DNA of 48,855 bases from Pseudofulvimonas gallinarii (GTDB lineage Bacteria; Pseudomonadota; Gammaproteobacteria; Xanthomonadales; UBA2363): contig NZ_SMAF01000017.1 of the NCBI RefSeq assembly GCF_004343305.1, positions 13,043 through 61,897 of the forward strand. The letters are read 5' to 3'. The translations under genes and the position numbers were made by a program. Numbering within the stretch: position 1 is the first letter of the stretch; each line of letters opens with the position of its first letter. The notes under the pieces are model-generated. The model saw only the letters and a list, made by a program, of their open reading frames with translations. It ran no database searches and was not told the origin of the DNA. This document shows, one piece after another, positions 1 to 3,684 of this stretch.

Positions 1-520
1 GAGGTCACGACTTCGCGGGCATGACCGGCTTCGGGACCGCGGGCGATTTCGTCTCCGACCGAGCCAGCCGCTGATTCCGTCATACCCGCGAAGGCGGGCA
101 TCCAGCGGAACTCGCGTTGAGCCTGACTCACTGCATGCCTTGGTGGGCATGACGTGTGTAGGGATTGCGGAGGTCACGACTTCGCGGGCATGACCGGCTT
201 CGGGACCGCGGGCGATTTCGTCTCCGACCGAGCCAGCCGCTGATTCCGTCATACCCGCGAAGGCGGGTATCCAGAGGAACTTGCGTTGAGCCTGACTCAC
301 TGCATGCCGCCTTGGCGGGCATGACCGGCCTTCGGGACCGCGGGCGATTTCGTCTCCGACCGAGCCAGCCGCTGATTCCGTCATACCCGCGAAGGCGGGT
401 ATCCAGCGGAACATGCGTTGAGCCTGAACTCACGGCATGCCGCCTTGGCGGGCATGACGTGTGTAGGGATTGCGGAGGTCACGACTTCGCGGGCATGACG
501 ATCCGTTGTGGCGTTTTGGC
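1..520. repeat. REP-like repeat array, block A
   Basis: This stretch holds three imperfect copies of a unit of roughly 120-170 bp. Each copy carries the palindromic core CCCGCGAAGGCGGG flanked by GTCATA on the left and (T/C)ATCCAG on the right, at about 78-105, 248-274 and 380-406. A second weaker half-palindrome containing GGGCATGAC follows each core. Shared filler such as GATTTCGTCTCCGACCGAGC and GGGATTGCGGAGGTCACGAC recurs between cores. Reading frames across it are repeat translations (for example MPAKA, RRRVS) and are not genes. The array continues past the left window edge. Such elements are common between genes in Xanthomonadales. Confidence 0.85.
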
Positions 521-583
521 TGCCGGAACAGTCATCGGAGTGGACTTTGGACTGCCAGCCGTGCCTACTCAACGCGGCCCAAC

Positions 584-922
584 ATGTCCGTTGATATGGC
601 AATGGAAAAGCAGCCAGCGGTTTACATCCTCGCCAGTGACAGGAACGGGACGTTGTATGTCGGCGTGACCAGCGATCTGGTCAAGCGGATCTGGCAACAC
701 CGGCAACATGCCGTCGAAGGTTTTACGGCGAGATACGGCGTTACGCGGCTGGTCTGGTACGAGCTGCACGGGGATATGGTGTCAGCGATTTCCCGGGAAA
801 AGCAGGTCAAGAAGTGGCGCCGGTCATGGAAGCTGCGATTGATCGAGGAACTCAATCCGGATTGGACCGATCTTTGGGGCGAAATCTGCGGGTTCGAGAC
901 CGGGGCACCGCGGTCGGATTGA
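584..922 (+). CDS. GIY-YIG nuclease family protein (small, YhbQ/UPF0213-like)
   Basis: A 112-residue protein that is almost entirely one GIY-YIG endonuclease domain. The two defining strands are VYI at residues 13-15 and YVG at 25-27. The candidate catalytic Arg is R35, the metal-binding Glu is E72 in REKQVKKW, and a conserved Asn is N91 in the NPDW motif. Known GIY-YIG domains cut DNA; the small stand-alone bacterial members have poorly known roles. The start at 584 is the first ATG outside repeat sequence, but no clear Shine-Dalgarno site precedes it and the ATGs at 596 and 602 are alternatives. An upstream in-frame extension would only translate repeat DNA. The gene sits between two REP-like arrays, with its stop at the edge of the second, which suggests but does not prove a functional link. 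Confidence 0.85.
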   Translation: MSVDMAMEKQPAVYILASDRNGTLYVGVTSDLVKRIWQHRQHAVEGFTARYGVTRLVWYELHGDMVSAISREKQVKKWRRSWKLRLIEELNPDWTDLWGEICGFETGAPRSD

Positions 923-1252
923 GCAGGAGTCGGCTCGGCCACGCCGCTGCGGAGCCGGCTGAACCGGCACTGCCGGACCCGAAACTTGCGCTGAGGCTGA
1001 ATTCGCTGGATGCCCGCCTTCACGGGCATGACGGGTTTCGGGATTGCGGAGACCGCGACTTGGCGGCATGCCTGGATTCCGGGTGGGAATGCCCTTGCAG
1101 GCTCTGCGGAGGGCGGGTCTTCGAACCCGGCGGACGTTTGCGTTTTCCAAGCTGACCAGGTCAGTCGCTGGCGTCCCCCCTGATTTCATCTCTGACAAGT
1201 CGCTGCGGTCACCTTTCCGATTTCGTCTCTGCGAACACGAGCCCCTGATTCC

Positions 1253-1333
1253 GTCATACCCGCGAAGGCGGGTATCCAGCCGGTCTTGCGCTGAGGCTGA
1301 GTTCGCTGGATGCCCGCCTGCGCGGGCATGACG
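1253..1333. repeat. Convergent REP pair (BIME-like), copy 1
   Basis: The palindrome at 1253-1279 (core CCCGCGAAGGCGGG) faces an inverted element at 1306-1333 (core CCCGCCTGCGCGGG) across a 26-nt spacer. The outer sequences GTCAT and ATGAC are complementary, so the whole segment can fold into one long imperfect hairpin as well as two small ones. The arrangement resembles the paired REPs (BIMEs) of enterobacteria. Confidence 0.75.
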
Positions 1334-1761
1334 ACCATTGGGACCGCGGACGCCACACCTGCGCAGGCATGACGACCTTCGGGCTTGCGGACGCCGCGCC
1401 TGCGCGGGAAAGGCGGGCTTCGGGACCGCGGACGCCGCGCCTTCACGGGCGTGACGGGCTTCGGGGCTTGCGGGCGCCGCGCCTTCACGGGCATGACGGG
1501 CATCGGGGCTTGCGGGCGCCGCGCCTTCACGGGCATGACGGGTTTCGGGATTGCGGAGACCGCGACTTGGCGGCATGCCTGGATTCCGGGTGGGAATGCC
1601 CTTGCAGGCTCTGCGGAGGGCGGCTCATCGCATCCGGCGGACGTTTGCGTTTTCCACGCTGCGGAGGTCAGTCGCTGCCGTCCCCTCCCTGATTTCATCT
1701 CTGACCAGTCGCTGCGGTCACCTTTCCGATTTCGTCTCTGCCAACACGAGCCCCTGATTCC

Positions 1762-1842
1762 GTCATACCCGCGAAGGCGGGTATCCAGCCGGTCTTGCGC
1801 TGAGGCTGAGTTCGCTGGATGCCCGCCTGCGCGGGCATGACG
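1762..1842. repeat. Convergent REP pair (BIME-like), copy 2
   Basis: A near-identical second copy of the pair at 1253-1333, carried by the ~509-bp duplication. It has a GTCATA-type element at 1762-1788 and its inverted partner at 1815-1842, with the same spacer sequence. Its high similarity to copy 1 points to recent duplication. Confidence 0.75.
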
Positions 1843-2034
1843 GCCATTGGGACCGCGGACGCCACACCTGCGCGGGCATGACGACCTTCGGGCTTGCGGA
1901 CGCCGCGCCTGCGCGGGAAAGGCGGGCTTCGGGACCGCGGACGCCGCGCCTTCACGGGCGTGACGACCTTCGGGCTTGCGGATGCCGCGCCTGCGCGGGC
2001 ATGACGGGCGTCCCGGTGCTCGCCGGGGATTGCC

Positions 2035-2400: not shown

Positions 2401-2647
2401 CCATCGAATGCCAGCCGGCGCGCCTCCGGGCGCGCCGGGCTGTGCCCCGTCGCTCGTCGCCTCAACCGCCGCGCGATGCTTTCCGGCGCCCGGCTTTGGC
2501 GTCAGCCCGCTACACGTTCTGTCCGTCCGCGCGACCATTGCCCGTCGCCGGTCTGTGCCGAGGCCGCGCCGCTATGATGGTTCCGTCGGCGCCCGACTGG
2601 TTGCGCCGGCGAACGGATGCTCTGGCCGGGACTGCCTGACGAACCGC

Positions 2648-3262
2648 ATGCGACGCGATTTCAATTTCCCGCTTCCACGCTGGCTGGCCATCGCCGTGCT
2701 GGCGCTGCTGGTGCTGGTGCAGGTCTGGAAGCACTACGACGCGCCGTCGATTGCCGGAACGGCCGGGCGGCCGGACGTTTCAGCACCGGCGCCATCGTTG
2801 CCGGCGCCATCGGAACCCGGGCGATCCAGTCCCGCGCCACCGGGTCCTGCGCCATCGAATGCCGGGCGGTCGAAGTCCACGTCGTCGAATCCCGCGCCCT
2901 CGCACCCCGGGGGATCGAAGTCCGCGCAATCGAATCCTGCGCCGTCGAATCCCGCGCCCGCGACATCGTCGACGCCGGCGCGGTCTTATCCGTCTTTCCT
3001 GCCGCCGGAGGCGCCGGCGGTCGTCGAACGCATCCTGCGCGGGGGGCCGCATCCGCATCGCCAGGATGGCGCCGTGTTCCAGAACCGCGAGCGCCGTCTG
3101 CCTTCGCGGGCGCGCGGCCATTACCGCGAATACACCGTGCCGACGCCAGGTTCGCGCGACCGCGGCGCGCGCCGCATCGTCACTGGCGGCGACCCCCCGA
3201 CCGAGTTCTGGTACACCGCGGACCACTACCGCACGTTCCGATCCTTCGAGGTGCCGCGATGA
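2648..3262 (+). CDS. Membrane-anchored barnase/RNase Sa-type ribonuclease (N1/T1 family)
   Basis: A 204-residue protein. Residues 13-27 form one hydrophobic segment after a short basic N-terminus, read as an uncleaved signal anchor. Residues about 35-110 are a Pro/Ser-rich linker encoded by short DNA repeats. The C-terminal 85 residues are a microbial ribonuclease domain. The general base is E161 in YREYTV, R175/R176 sit in ARRIV, and the general acid is H193 in TADHYR, matching the Glu-Arg-His triad of barnase and RNase Sa. These enzymes cut single-stranded RNA at guanine. Its stop overlaps the barstar start by 4 bp (ATGA), so toxin and inhibitor are coupled. The start at 2648 is chosen because the upstream in-frame part overlaps the rnpB flank. 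Whether the domain ends up in the periplasm is inferred from the anchor. Confidence 0.85.
   Translation: MRRDFNFPLPRWLAIAVLALLVLVQVWKHYDAPSIAGTAGRPDVSAPAPSLPAPSEPGRSSPAPPGPAPSNAGRSKSTSSNPAPSHPGGSKSAQSNPAPSNPAPATSSTPARSYPSFLPPEAPAVVERILRGGPHPHRQDGAVFQNRERRLPSRARGHYREYTVPTPGSRDRGARRIVTGGDPPTEFWYTADHYRTFRSFEVPR
2814..2965 (+). repeat. Pro/Ser linker-encoding short tandem repeats
   Basis: Degenerate repeats containing TCGAATCCCGCGCC and GGGCGATCGAAGTCC occur several times and encode SNPAPS/PGRSKS-type peptides in the linker of the ribonuclease. In-frame repeat units suggest that linker length can vary between strains. Confidence 0.6.
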
Positions 3263-3684
3263 CCTTTGGCGAATGGACGGCCTGGCTGCGGCAGCATGGC
3301 GAGGCCGGCGTGTTCTTCATCGAACCGGGCGAGCGGCCGGACCTGTTCGCGGCGGCGCGCGGCCTGGACTTCGCGACCGTGCGCCTGGACCTGGCCGATT
3401 GCCGACGCAGCGATGACCTGTTCGCACGCATGGCTGCGGTGTTCCGTTTCCCCGAGTGGTTCGGCGACAACTGGGACGCGCTGGCCGACTGCCTGGCCGA
3501 CCTGTCGTGGTGGCTGGCGCGCGGTTACGTGCTGGTGATCGGCAACAGTGGTGCCTTCCGGGAGGCCGATCCGGCGTCGTGGCGGATGCTGCTGGACGTG
3601 CTGGCCGACACCGCCGACAGCTGGCGCGACGCCGCCGTGCCGTTCTGGAGTTTCGTCACCGACCCGCCCGCGGACGATGCCTGA
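3259..3684 (+). CDS. Barstar family ribonuclease inhibitor
   Basis: A 141-residue cytoplasmic protein of the barstar family, which plugs the active site of barnase-type RNases. The family hallmark is FPEWFGDNWDALADCLADLSW, containing the helix with the conserved Trp and Asp residues that bind the RNase. It starts in the ATGA overlap with the ribonuclease gene, so the two proteins are made together. A cytoplasmic inhibitor beside an exported or anchored RNase is the classical self-protection arrangement. The last ten or so codons (VTDPPADDA) lie in a 140-bp unit that is duplicated just downstream. Confidence 0.93.
   Translation: MTFGEWTAWLRQHGEAGVFFIEPGERPDLFAAARGLDFATVRLDLADCRRSDDLFARMAAVFRFPEWFGDNWDALADCLADLSWWLARGYVLVIGNSGAFREADPASWRMLLDVLADTADSWRDAAVPFWSFVTDPPADDA

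Follow-up and report, generated by a model that had tools for sequence, protein, structure and literature searches.

A stretch of 48,855 nucleotides from Pseudofulvimonas gallinarii (contig NZ_SMAF01000017.1, hereafter the window) carries near its beginning a compact gene for a GIY-YIG nuclease, embedded in an array of repetitive extragenic palindromes (REPs) that bear a CGTC tag. Comparison with homologous loci indicates that the nuclease and the palindromes very probably constitute one dedicated unit. The best explanation, which we consider probable since several independent lines of evidence argue for it, is a type of mobile element composed of a palindrome in plus orientation, the GIY-YIG gene and a palindrome in minus orientation, with the nuclease acting on the ends. 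The association is strong, and we infer from it that the nuclease may cut and mobilise these repeats.

The nuclease gene and the palindrome array of the window

Palindromes were located with a strict detector of the form GTCAT-stem-ATCCA, and the locus is composed of the following features.

602..922, + strand: GIY-YIG nuclease gene (Pfam PF01541, invariant catalytic residues, AlphaFold; open reading frame first called as 584-922)
79..104, + strand: CGTC-type palindrome of the upstream array (strict detector)
248..273, + strand: CGTC-type palindrome of the upstream array (strict detector)
380..405, + strand: CGTC-type palindrome, the full copy closest upstream of the gene (strict detector, fold)
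482..500, - strand: degenerate half palindrome, closer to the gene than 380-405 (inverted repeats)
1007..1032, - strand: CGTC-type palindrome closest downstream of the gene (strict detector, fold)
1253..1278, + strand: palindrome 1 of a +/- dimer (strict detector, fold)
1307..1332, - strand: palindrome 2 of this +/- dimer (strict detector, fold)
1762..1787, + strand: palindrome 1 of a second, tandemly duplicated dimer (strict detector, repeat families)
1816..1841, - strand: palindrome 2 of the second dimer (strict detector, repeat families)
1015..1974, no strand: tandem duplication of the downstream array (507-509 bp period, 95-98% identity between copies)

The strict detector recognizes eight palindromes within positions 1-2010 and one more elsewhere in the window (40152). 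It finds none in the reversed or complemented window, used as a control, so that the dense palindromes noted on both sides of the gene in a preliminary description of this DNA are confirmed. Their layout is CGTC, AT-N-CCCGC, a 4-nt loop, GCGGG-N-AT and CCA, with a predicted fold of an 8-bp stem, and the first dimer (1249-1336) is predicted to form one long hairpin (z -6.9). Much of the array consists of degenerate half copies and tandem duplications; half palindromes resembling 482-500 are also present at 8-25 and 177-194, and the duplicated segment 1015-1974 contains sub-repeats of 41-42 bp.

The genome of the window (3.45 Mb, 57 contigs) contains 78 exact copies of the 27-base palindrome form and none of the reversed pattern. 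By our reading of the match listing these copies are grouped in about 18 clusters, and the variable stem pair N/N', counted from the same listing, is complementary in 75 of the 78, which indicates that the stem is maintained by compensating change. Pairs of + and - palindromes with CGTC facing outward are common in this genome. The GIY-YIG gene occupies one of the clusters and, as far as the listing can be read, fills the sole gene-sized gap among palindrome gaps shorter than 2 kb. Since there is a single gene-holding cluster, chance and association are undecidable from this genome alone.

In the Pfam search, the open reading frame 584-922 matches PF01541 (GIY-YIG) with an E-value of 7.4e-16, and its protein has little else beyond this single domain; no NCBIfam family was matched at E up to 0.001. 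Homologous proteins start near MEKQP, which favours ATG 602 over ATG 584 as the start. With numbering from ATG 602, residues Y8, Y19, G21, R29, H33, E66, K70 and N85 are invariant among 50 aligned homologues. The candidate catalytic residues proposed earlier, R35, E72 and N91 from ATG 584, correspond to R29, E66 and N85, and the assignment of the gene thus stands. Since these catalytic residues are invariant, the enzyme looks active. Its AlphaFold model is confident (predicted local distance difference test 93.6, predicted template modelling score 0.85), and the closest solved relatives by sequence and structure are UPF0213 BH0048, Slx1 and the UvrC nuclease domain, with weak Foldseek E-values (best 1.6e-3). 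A role as a defence gene was considered and set aside, the sole PADLOC match being a marginal one to UzuA (33 residues, E 0.001). The window's genome contains a single close GIY-YIG copy. A phage origin of the gene was rejected, as a tblastn search of a phage collection with the window protein gave no match at E up to 1e-5.

Palindromes around homologous genes

A first set of 74 homologues was picked by protein patterns alone from one-per-species genomes, many of them metagenome bins. By record title and taxonomy, they span Alpha-, Beta- and Gammaproteobacteria, Myxococcota, Thermodesulfobacteriota, Chloroflexota, Bacteroidota and Balneolota. With a generic detector (GTCAT, inverted repeat, ATCCA, one mismatch allowed), 95 palindromes are present within 250 bp of these genes, that is 2.61/kb, of which two (L070, L078) look spurious. 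At 5-10 kb there are 28 in 512 kb (0.055/kb), and the density stays at 0.04-0.09/kb across 0.5-10 kb. The palindromes are therefore about 50-fold denser beside the homologues than far away, and the complement control yields a single one over all distance bins. When only intergenic DNA is compared, by a crude open-reading-frame mask with an identical filter near and far, the densities are 3.30 and 0.25/kb (13 fold; 11 fold unfiltered).

A strict match is present within 1 kb at 44 of the 74 loci. A relaxed detector (43/74 loci, 20/26 inverted) did not outperform the strict detector and entered only into a union of two detectors and the inverted repeats of ten loci chosen by eye. This union gives a palindrome at 57 loci, or 54 without three that are considered spurious (L070, L078, L055). 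Longer stems or loops occur at some alphaproteobacterial and balneolotan loci (e.g. L064, L081, L101, L108). In a second set of 59 distinct genes obtained from genome searches, a palindrome lies within 300 bp of 38, at densities of 3.79/kb near and 0.07/kb far. The enrichment around homologues, suggested as a check in the preliminary description, is hence found in both sets. On the other hand, other GIY-YIG genes have a match within about 500 bp at only 1 of 40 paralog loci, compared to 35 of 59 family loci; several of these 40 come from genomes that also carry family members, and the distance, which assumes 1.5-kb flanks, is approximate near contig ends. The lone paralog match (L194) is not a convincing palindrome and was kept in the count.

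The palindromes are not only close to the gene but also oriented with respect to it. At loci flanked on both sides within 300 bp, the closest palindromes have + orientation upstream and - orientation downstream in 26 of 33 cases of the first set (binomial p 1e-10) and in 18 of 31 of the second (p 9e-5), for a null expectation of one quarter. Such a preference is not expected if the gene fell at random into arrays. Furthermore, one genome (G165) contains just two matches to the broad pattern, and these lie on the two sides of the gene, at 21 and 27 bp from its matched part, which argues that the palindromes are part of the unit and not a landing array. The annotated homologue loci that were inspected are intergenic.

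The stem and the protein also co-vary. Among 37 loci with a 26-base palindrome, mapping the stem core onto the protein tree takes 5 changes, fewer than in any of 300 shuffles (mean 10.2), and mapping the palindrome length class takes 12, compared with a mean of 15.9 (2/300 as low). The tail type tracks the tree weakly, its 10 changes being matched or undercut in 9 of the 300 shuffles. These tests are inflated by near relatives, and the resolution of the tree is weak.

Site polymorphism, multiplied derivatives and repeat number

Presence and absence of the unit was followed at one intergenic site in 20 genomes of one genus. The site was resolved in 18 of them, G477 and G479 being left out since the left flank alone was found in the locus. 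The gene is present in five genomes (480-663 bp), with strict palindromes in four and none in G468. Neither the gene nor a strict palindrome is present in six genomes with 9 bp and in five with 90-195 bp, and two more have a single palindrome and lack the gene. Gain or loss at this syntenic position thus affects the gene and the palindromes jointly. Several species of this genus, with or without the gene at the site, have a match to it elsewhere (71-73% identical DNA). A comparable case is provided by Azospirillum lipoferum 4B, in which the interval from sufB to sufC (617 bp) holds the gene, flanked on either side by a +/- dimer; the same interval without the unit measures 87-129 bp in A. oryzae, A. 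ramasamyi and B510. For the copies of Rhizobium CIAT894 and Shinella, searches with the surroundings gave partial matches and no junction.

Derivatives of the unit are multiplied in one draft genome. This genome, G281, carries a full unit (L128) together with many palindrome-bounded pieces of the 3' end of its gene. The common derivative of about 170 bp is composed of a palindrome, about 120 bp of the gene end and an inverted palindrome, with a deletion joint that, as read from the alignment, lies at a 4-base match. A search with this derivative gave 184 aligned pieces on many contigs, many of them single palindromes. The 30 loci fetched contain 21 distinct palindrome-led copies, one being the end of the full unit; 14 of the 21 have both ends, with sizes of 117, 169-170, 178, 185 and 203 bp. 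These pieces look like internal-deletion derivatives of an autonomous element. Another genome, G126, contains three copies of a 341-378 bp segment that includes a palindrome along with two thirds of the gene from its 3' side; the copies are 99.4-99.7% identical and lie in unrelated contexts. More generally, truncated and multiple family members are found within single genomes.

Two side observations concern copies of this kind. G281 and G386 have 13 family matches each, several near contig ends; near-identical copies break short-read assemblies, and copy numbers in these drafts may be underestimates. In G418 (L170, L171, L172), a repeated unit with 18-bp terminal inverted repeats is, by our reading of the alignment, located within a palindrome and accompanied by a 10-bp duplication. 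It contains in turn a fragment of a GIY-YIG gene and two other palindromes, a case of nested elements. The G418 units were set aside as evidence for mobility, since another inverted-repeat element encloses them.

A class-wide survey of 369 genomes, of which 74 are gene-positive at a profile E-value of 1e-20 or better, related repeat number to the presence of the gene. At least three palindromes are present in 40 of the 74 gene-positive genomes and in 35 of the 295 others (odds ratio 8.7, p 1e-13; the genomes are not independent). In 42 families of mixed gene status, carriers of the gene have the larger mean count in 24 families and the smaller one in 9, with 9 ties (p 0.014). Similarly, among 101 genomes of the order, any match is present in 18 of 33 with the gene and in 8 of 68 without it (odds ratio 9.0). 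The cuts for gene-positive genomes, that is the class profile value and a single-protein E of about 1e-15 in the order, were chosen by eye where the E-values show gaps. The majority of gene-positive genomes contain a single match or a few.

On the other hand, the presence of Y1_Tnp, the domain of RAYT transposases, is unrelated to repeat number (odds ratio 0.92), and a search of the window's genome with PF01797 (Y1_Tnp) gave no match. A RAYT as the partner of these palindromes was rejected on these two grounds, and the early suggestion of a non-RAYT system is supported. Two genomes of the window's genus (G001 and G002) have Y1_Tnp and lack both the GIY-YIG family gene and the palindromes.

Known repeat systems, mechanism and alternative explanations

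A CGTC-tagged REP superfamily was described in five phyla by Di Nocera 2013 (PMC3733652). In the available part of that text, the CGTC-1 REPs have a CGTC tag, an 8-bp stem starting with AT, a 4-nt loop and a CCA tail, and head-to-head dimers predominate. The window palindromes match this description in the tag, the 8-bp AT-starting stem, the 4-nt loop and the CCA tail (fold of 1249-1282). According to the same part, the CGTC repeats "apparently lack a dedicated transposase" and no associated transposase gene was found, whereas a dedicated nuclease gene is proposed here. The nuclease is currently the leading candidate for the enzyme that this widespread repeat family has been lacking.

The dRS3/NIME repeats of Neisseria, ATTCCC(N8)GGGAAT, appear to have the core of the window palindrome type; copies around the gonococcal homologue carry this exact pattern, and the window copies read ATACCC or ATGCCC. 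The accessible portion of PMC3898611 gives 646-725 dRS3 copies per meningococcal genome, links them to recombination and to variation of surface-protein loci, and names as the enzyme using them only the integrase of a phage that integrates at dRS3, suggested to recombine the copies, and no enzyme of their own. In the single plasmid collection searched, two gonococcal records were matched. The top match to the window gene, with 72% identity, is part of a 2.17-Mb Neisseria gonorrhoeae record, at a site that bears no annotated feature in that collection. It has an open frame of 95 aa (Pfam GIY-YIG E 4e-19), and 16 palindromes of this type lie within 1.6 kb around it. This homologue is the nearest row to the window protein by tree path, in a fork drawn open. 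The array around it (L241 3112-4691) contains mixed palindrome types in both orientations, and the second record matches 71% of a 2.4-kb query in seven pieces, so that the array varies between strains. On balance, the scales tip modestly towards the GIY-YIG/CGTC element being the origin of the CGTC REP superfamily in several phyla, including dRS3/NIME, which would make it a second and unrelated invention of a REP-plus-nuclease system.

The first such system, that of RAYT/TnpA-REP (REPtrons, REPINs), likewise has a small nuclease gene with flanking palindromes, dispersed inverted dimers and clusters, a patchy gene and repeats able to exist without it. The RAYT enzyme is of the HUH/Y1 type with GTAG-tagged REPs, whereas here the enzyme is a GIY-YIG protein (PF01541), in which a catalytic tyrosine for strand transfer is not known, and the palindromes are CGTC-tagged. 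UPF0213 (BH0048), the N-terminal domain of UvrC and Slx1 share the fold, as a single GIY-YIG domain. A GIY-YIG nuclease also serves a selfish element in the homing endonucleases such as I-TevI and in Penelope-like retroelements. Unlike these, no intron, intein or reverse transcriptase is seen in the present unit, and its ends are palindromes also found in many gene-less copies. We know of no DNA mobile element with a GIY-YIG nuclease as its only enzyme, and the kind of element is for this reason rated new, preprints and subscription work lying outside the search. Among the matches listed in open-licence PubMed Central (PMC) full text, which holds no preprints and few subscription journals, none linked GIY-YIG to REP-type repeats, and a term search did not find 'GIY' in three of the papers naming the CGTC catalogue (PMC12306157, PMC6006769, PMC5896051). 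A candidate enzyme makes the origin and spread of the CGTC/dRS3 repeats testable. If the nuclease does mobilise them, a hydrolytic GIY-YIG enzyme would act where transposases or HUH nucleases are expected, and the joining step would also be new.

It is rather likely, judging from the sequence comparisons, that the nuclease mobilises the palindromes. In the proposed mechanism, the CGTC palindromes would be the ends of the unit and the nuclease its sole encoded enzyme. The palindromes would extrude as hairpins or cruciforms, and the nuclease would cleave at the stem or alongside it, adjacent to the CGTC tag; such a structure-specific cut is plausible because of the fold kinship with Slx1. Repair of the break could then copy or move the unit, or any stretch between two such ends, and the gene-less dimers and arrays would represent non-autonomous derivatives, as REPINs do for RAYTs. 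Binding, cutting, the position of the cut and the copying route are all steps that we infer. The preliminary description had supposed that the nuclease recognises or mobilises the palindromes; orientation, presence/absence polymorphism and multiplied derivatives speak for this, and binding, cutting and moving are presumed from them.

Several observations weigh against this scheme. GIY-YIG enzymes are known to hydrolyse DNA and not to join strands, so the joining step must come from elsewhere. A different orientation is found at 7 of 33 and 13 of 31 two-sided loci, and the Azospirillum and gonococcal genes, which sit between dimers or array units, have the nearest palindromes - upstream and + downstream. 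At 17 of the 74 homologue loci none of the detectors reports a palindrome, and the pattern is absent from 23 of the 74 gene-positive genomes of the class survey. At least ten palindromes are present in 19 of the 295 gene-negative genomes, so that equal repeat numbers without the gene, named in the preliminary description as a refuting condition, do occur in a minority; overall, the odds ratio and the family comparison bear out the correlation with gene presence, and neither of the two genomic conditions set for refutation there spoke against the hypothesis. No exact boundary, target site or target duplication is readable in the polymorphic genus or in Azospirillum, the junctions at both being too diverged. 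G281 is a draft with mosaic arrays, in which segmental duplication could add copies, the shared G126 unit continues about 30 bp beyond the left palindrome, and the G418 unit is enclosed by another inverted-repeat element.

Some repeat-rich genomes are thus without a family gene. A PF01541 search of 12 of them gave 21 hits, UvrC-like or of another GIY-YIG kind; many of the frames have the size of UvrC, and the profile recovered none as a full family member. The detector has a match at five of these 21 loci (L255, L260, L266, L267, L269), and L255, a small frame in G406 with a good palindrome nearby, may be a diverged family member. Another of the twelve genomes (G358) retains a 41-residue family fragment. 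It is possible that such genomes reflect relics, assembly gaps or another enzyme. Examples are G463, G406, G169 and G072, with 84-190 palindromes and no family gene by profile or Pfam, save possibly L255 in G406.

Among the alternatives to a mobile element, host housekeeping seems unlikely. In this case the nuclease would have been domesticated as a caretaker of the palindromes, acting on their cruciforms or single-stranded hairpins in repair or array contraction, and selection would keep it adjacent to them without its being their spreading agent. The closest solved folds do include the structure-specific repair nucleases UvrC and Slx1, most gene-positive genomes have few matches, and arrays persist in the gene-negative genomes mentioned above. 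However, the gene is patchy within one genus, with its site empty in sister species, palindrome-bounded gene fragments are multiplied, and single genomes hold truncated and multiple members; a stable repair gene would not be expected to show any of these features.

That another enzyme, either a host transposase or a phage integrase, moves the palindromes and carries the GIY-YIG gene as cargo between two of them is quite improbable. Phage integration at dRS3, with its integrase suggested to recombine copies (PMC3898611, in its accessible portion), would fit such a scenario, as would the G418 unit inside an element with other terminal repeats. Yet the association with this gene subfamily recurs in several phyla and is seen at only one of the 40 paralog loci, Y1 transposases, the only transposase family compared, are not associated, the phage collection has no match to the window protein, and by our reading the GIY-YIG gap is the sole gene-sized one among palindrome gaps under 2 kb in the window's genome. 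Slightly less probable still is chance, in which the arrays would be extended intergenic regions free of constraint, open to the insertion of foreign genes of any kind: the position of the gene in one of about 18 clusters and of the gonococcal copy within a large array would suit it, but this competing explanation, raised in the preliminary description, is contradicted by the preferred inverted orientation, by units without an array such as that of G165, by the enrichment relative to intergenic DNA and by the paralog control.

A few further observations were made at neighbouring or related loci. A family member on a Planktothrix plasmid (L248 2998-3282) lies between an MmeI-type restriction enzyme and DISARM drmA, and its 6.3-kb locus has no strict palindrome. 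In the window, a class A RNase P RNA is located at 2050-2401, starting about 40 bp past the end of the array (Rfam RF00010, 309 bits). It is followed at 2408-3684 by a barnase-type ribonuclease (PF00545, E 2e-19) beside a barstar (PF01337, E 2e-28), whose frames overlap on the + strand.

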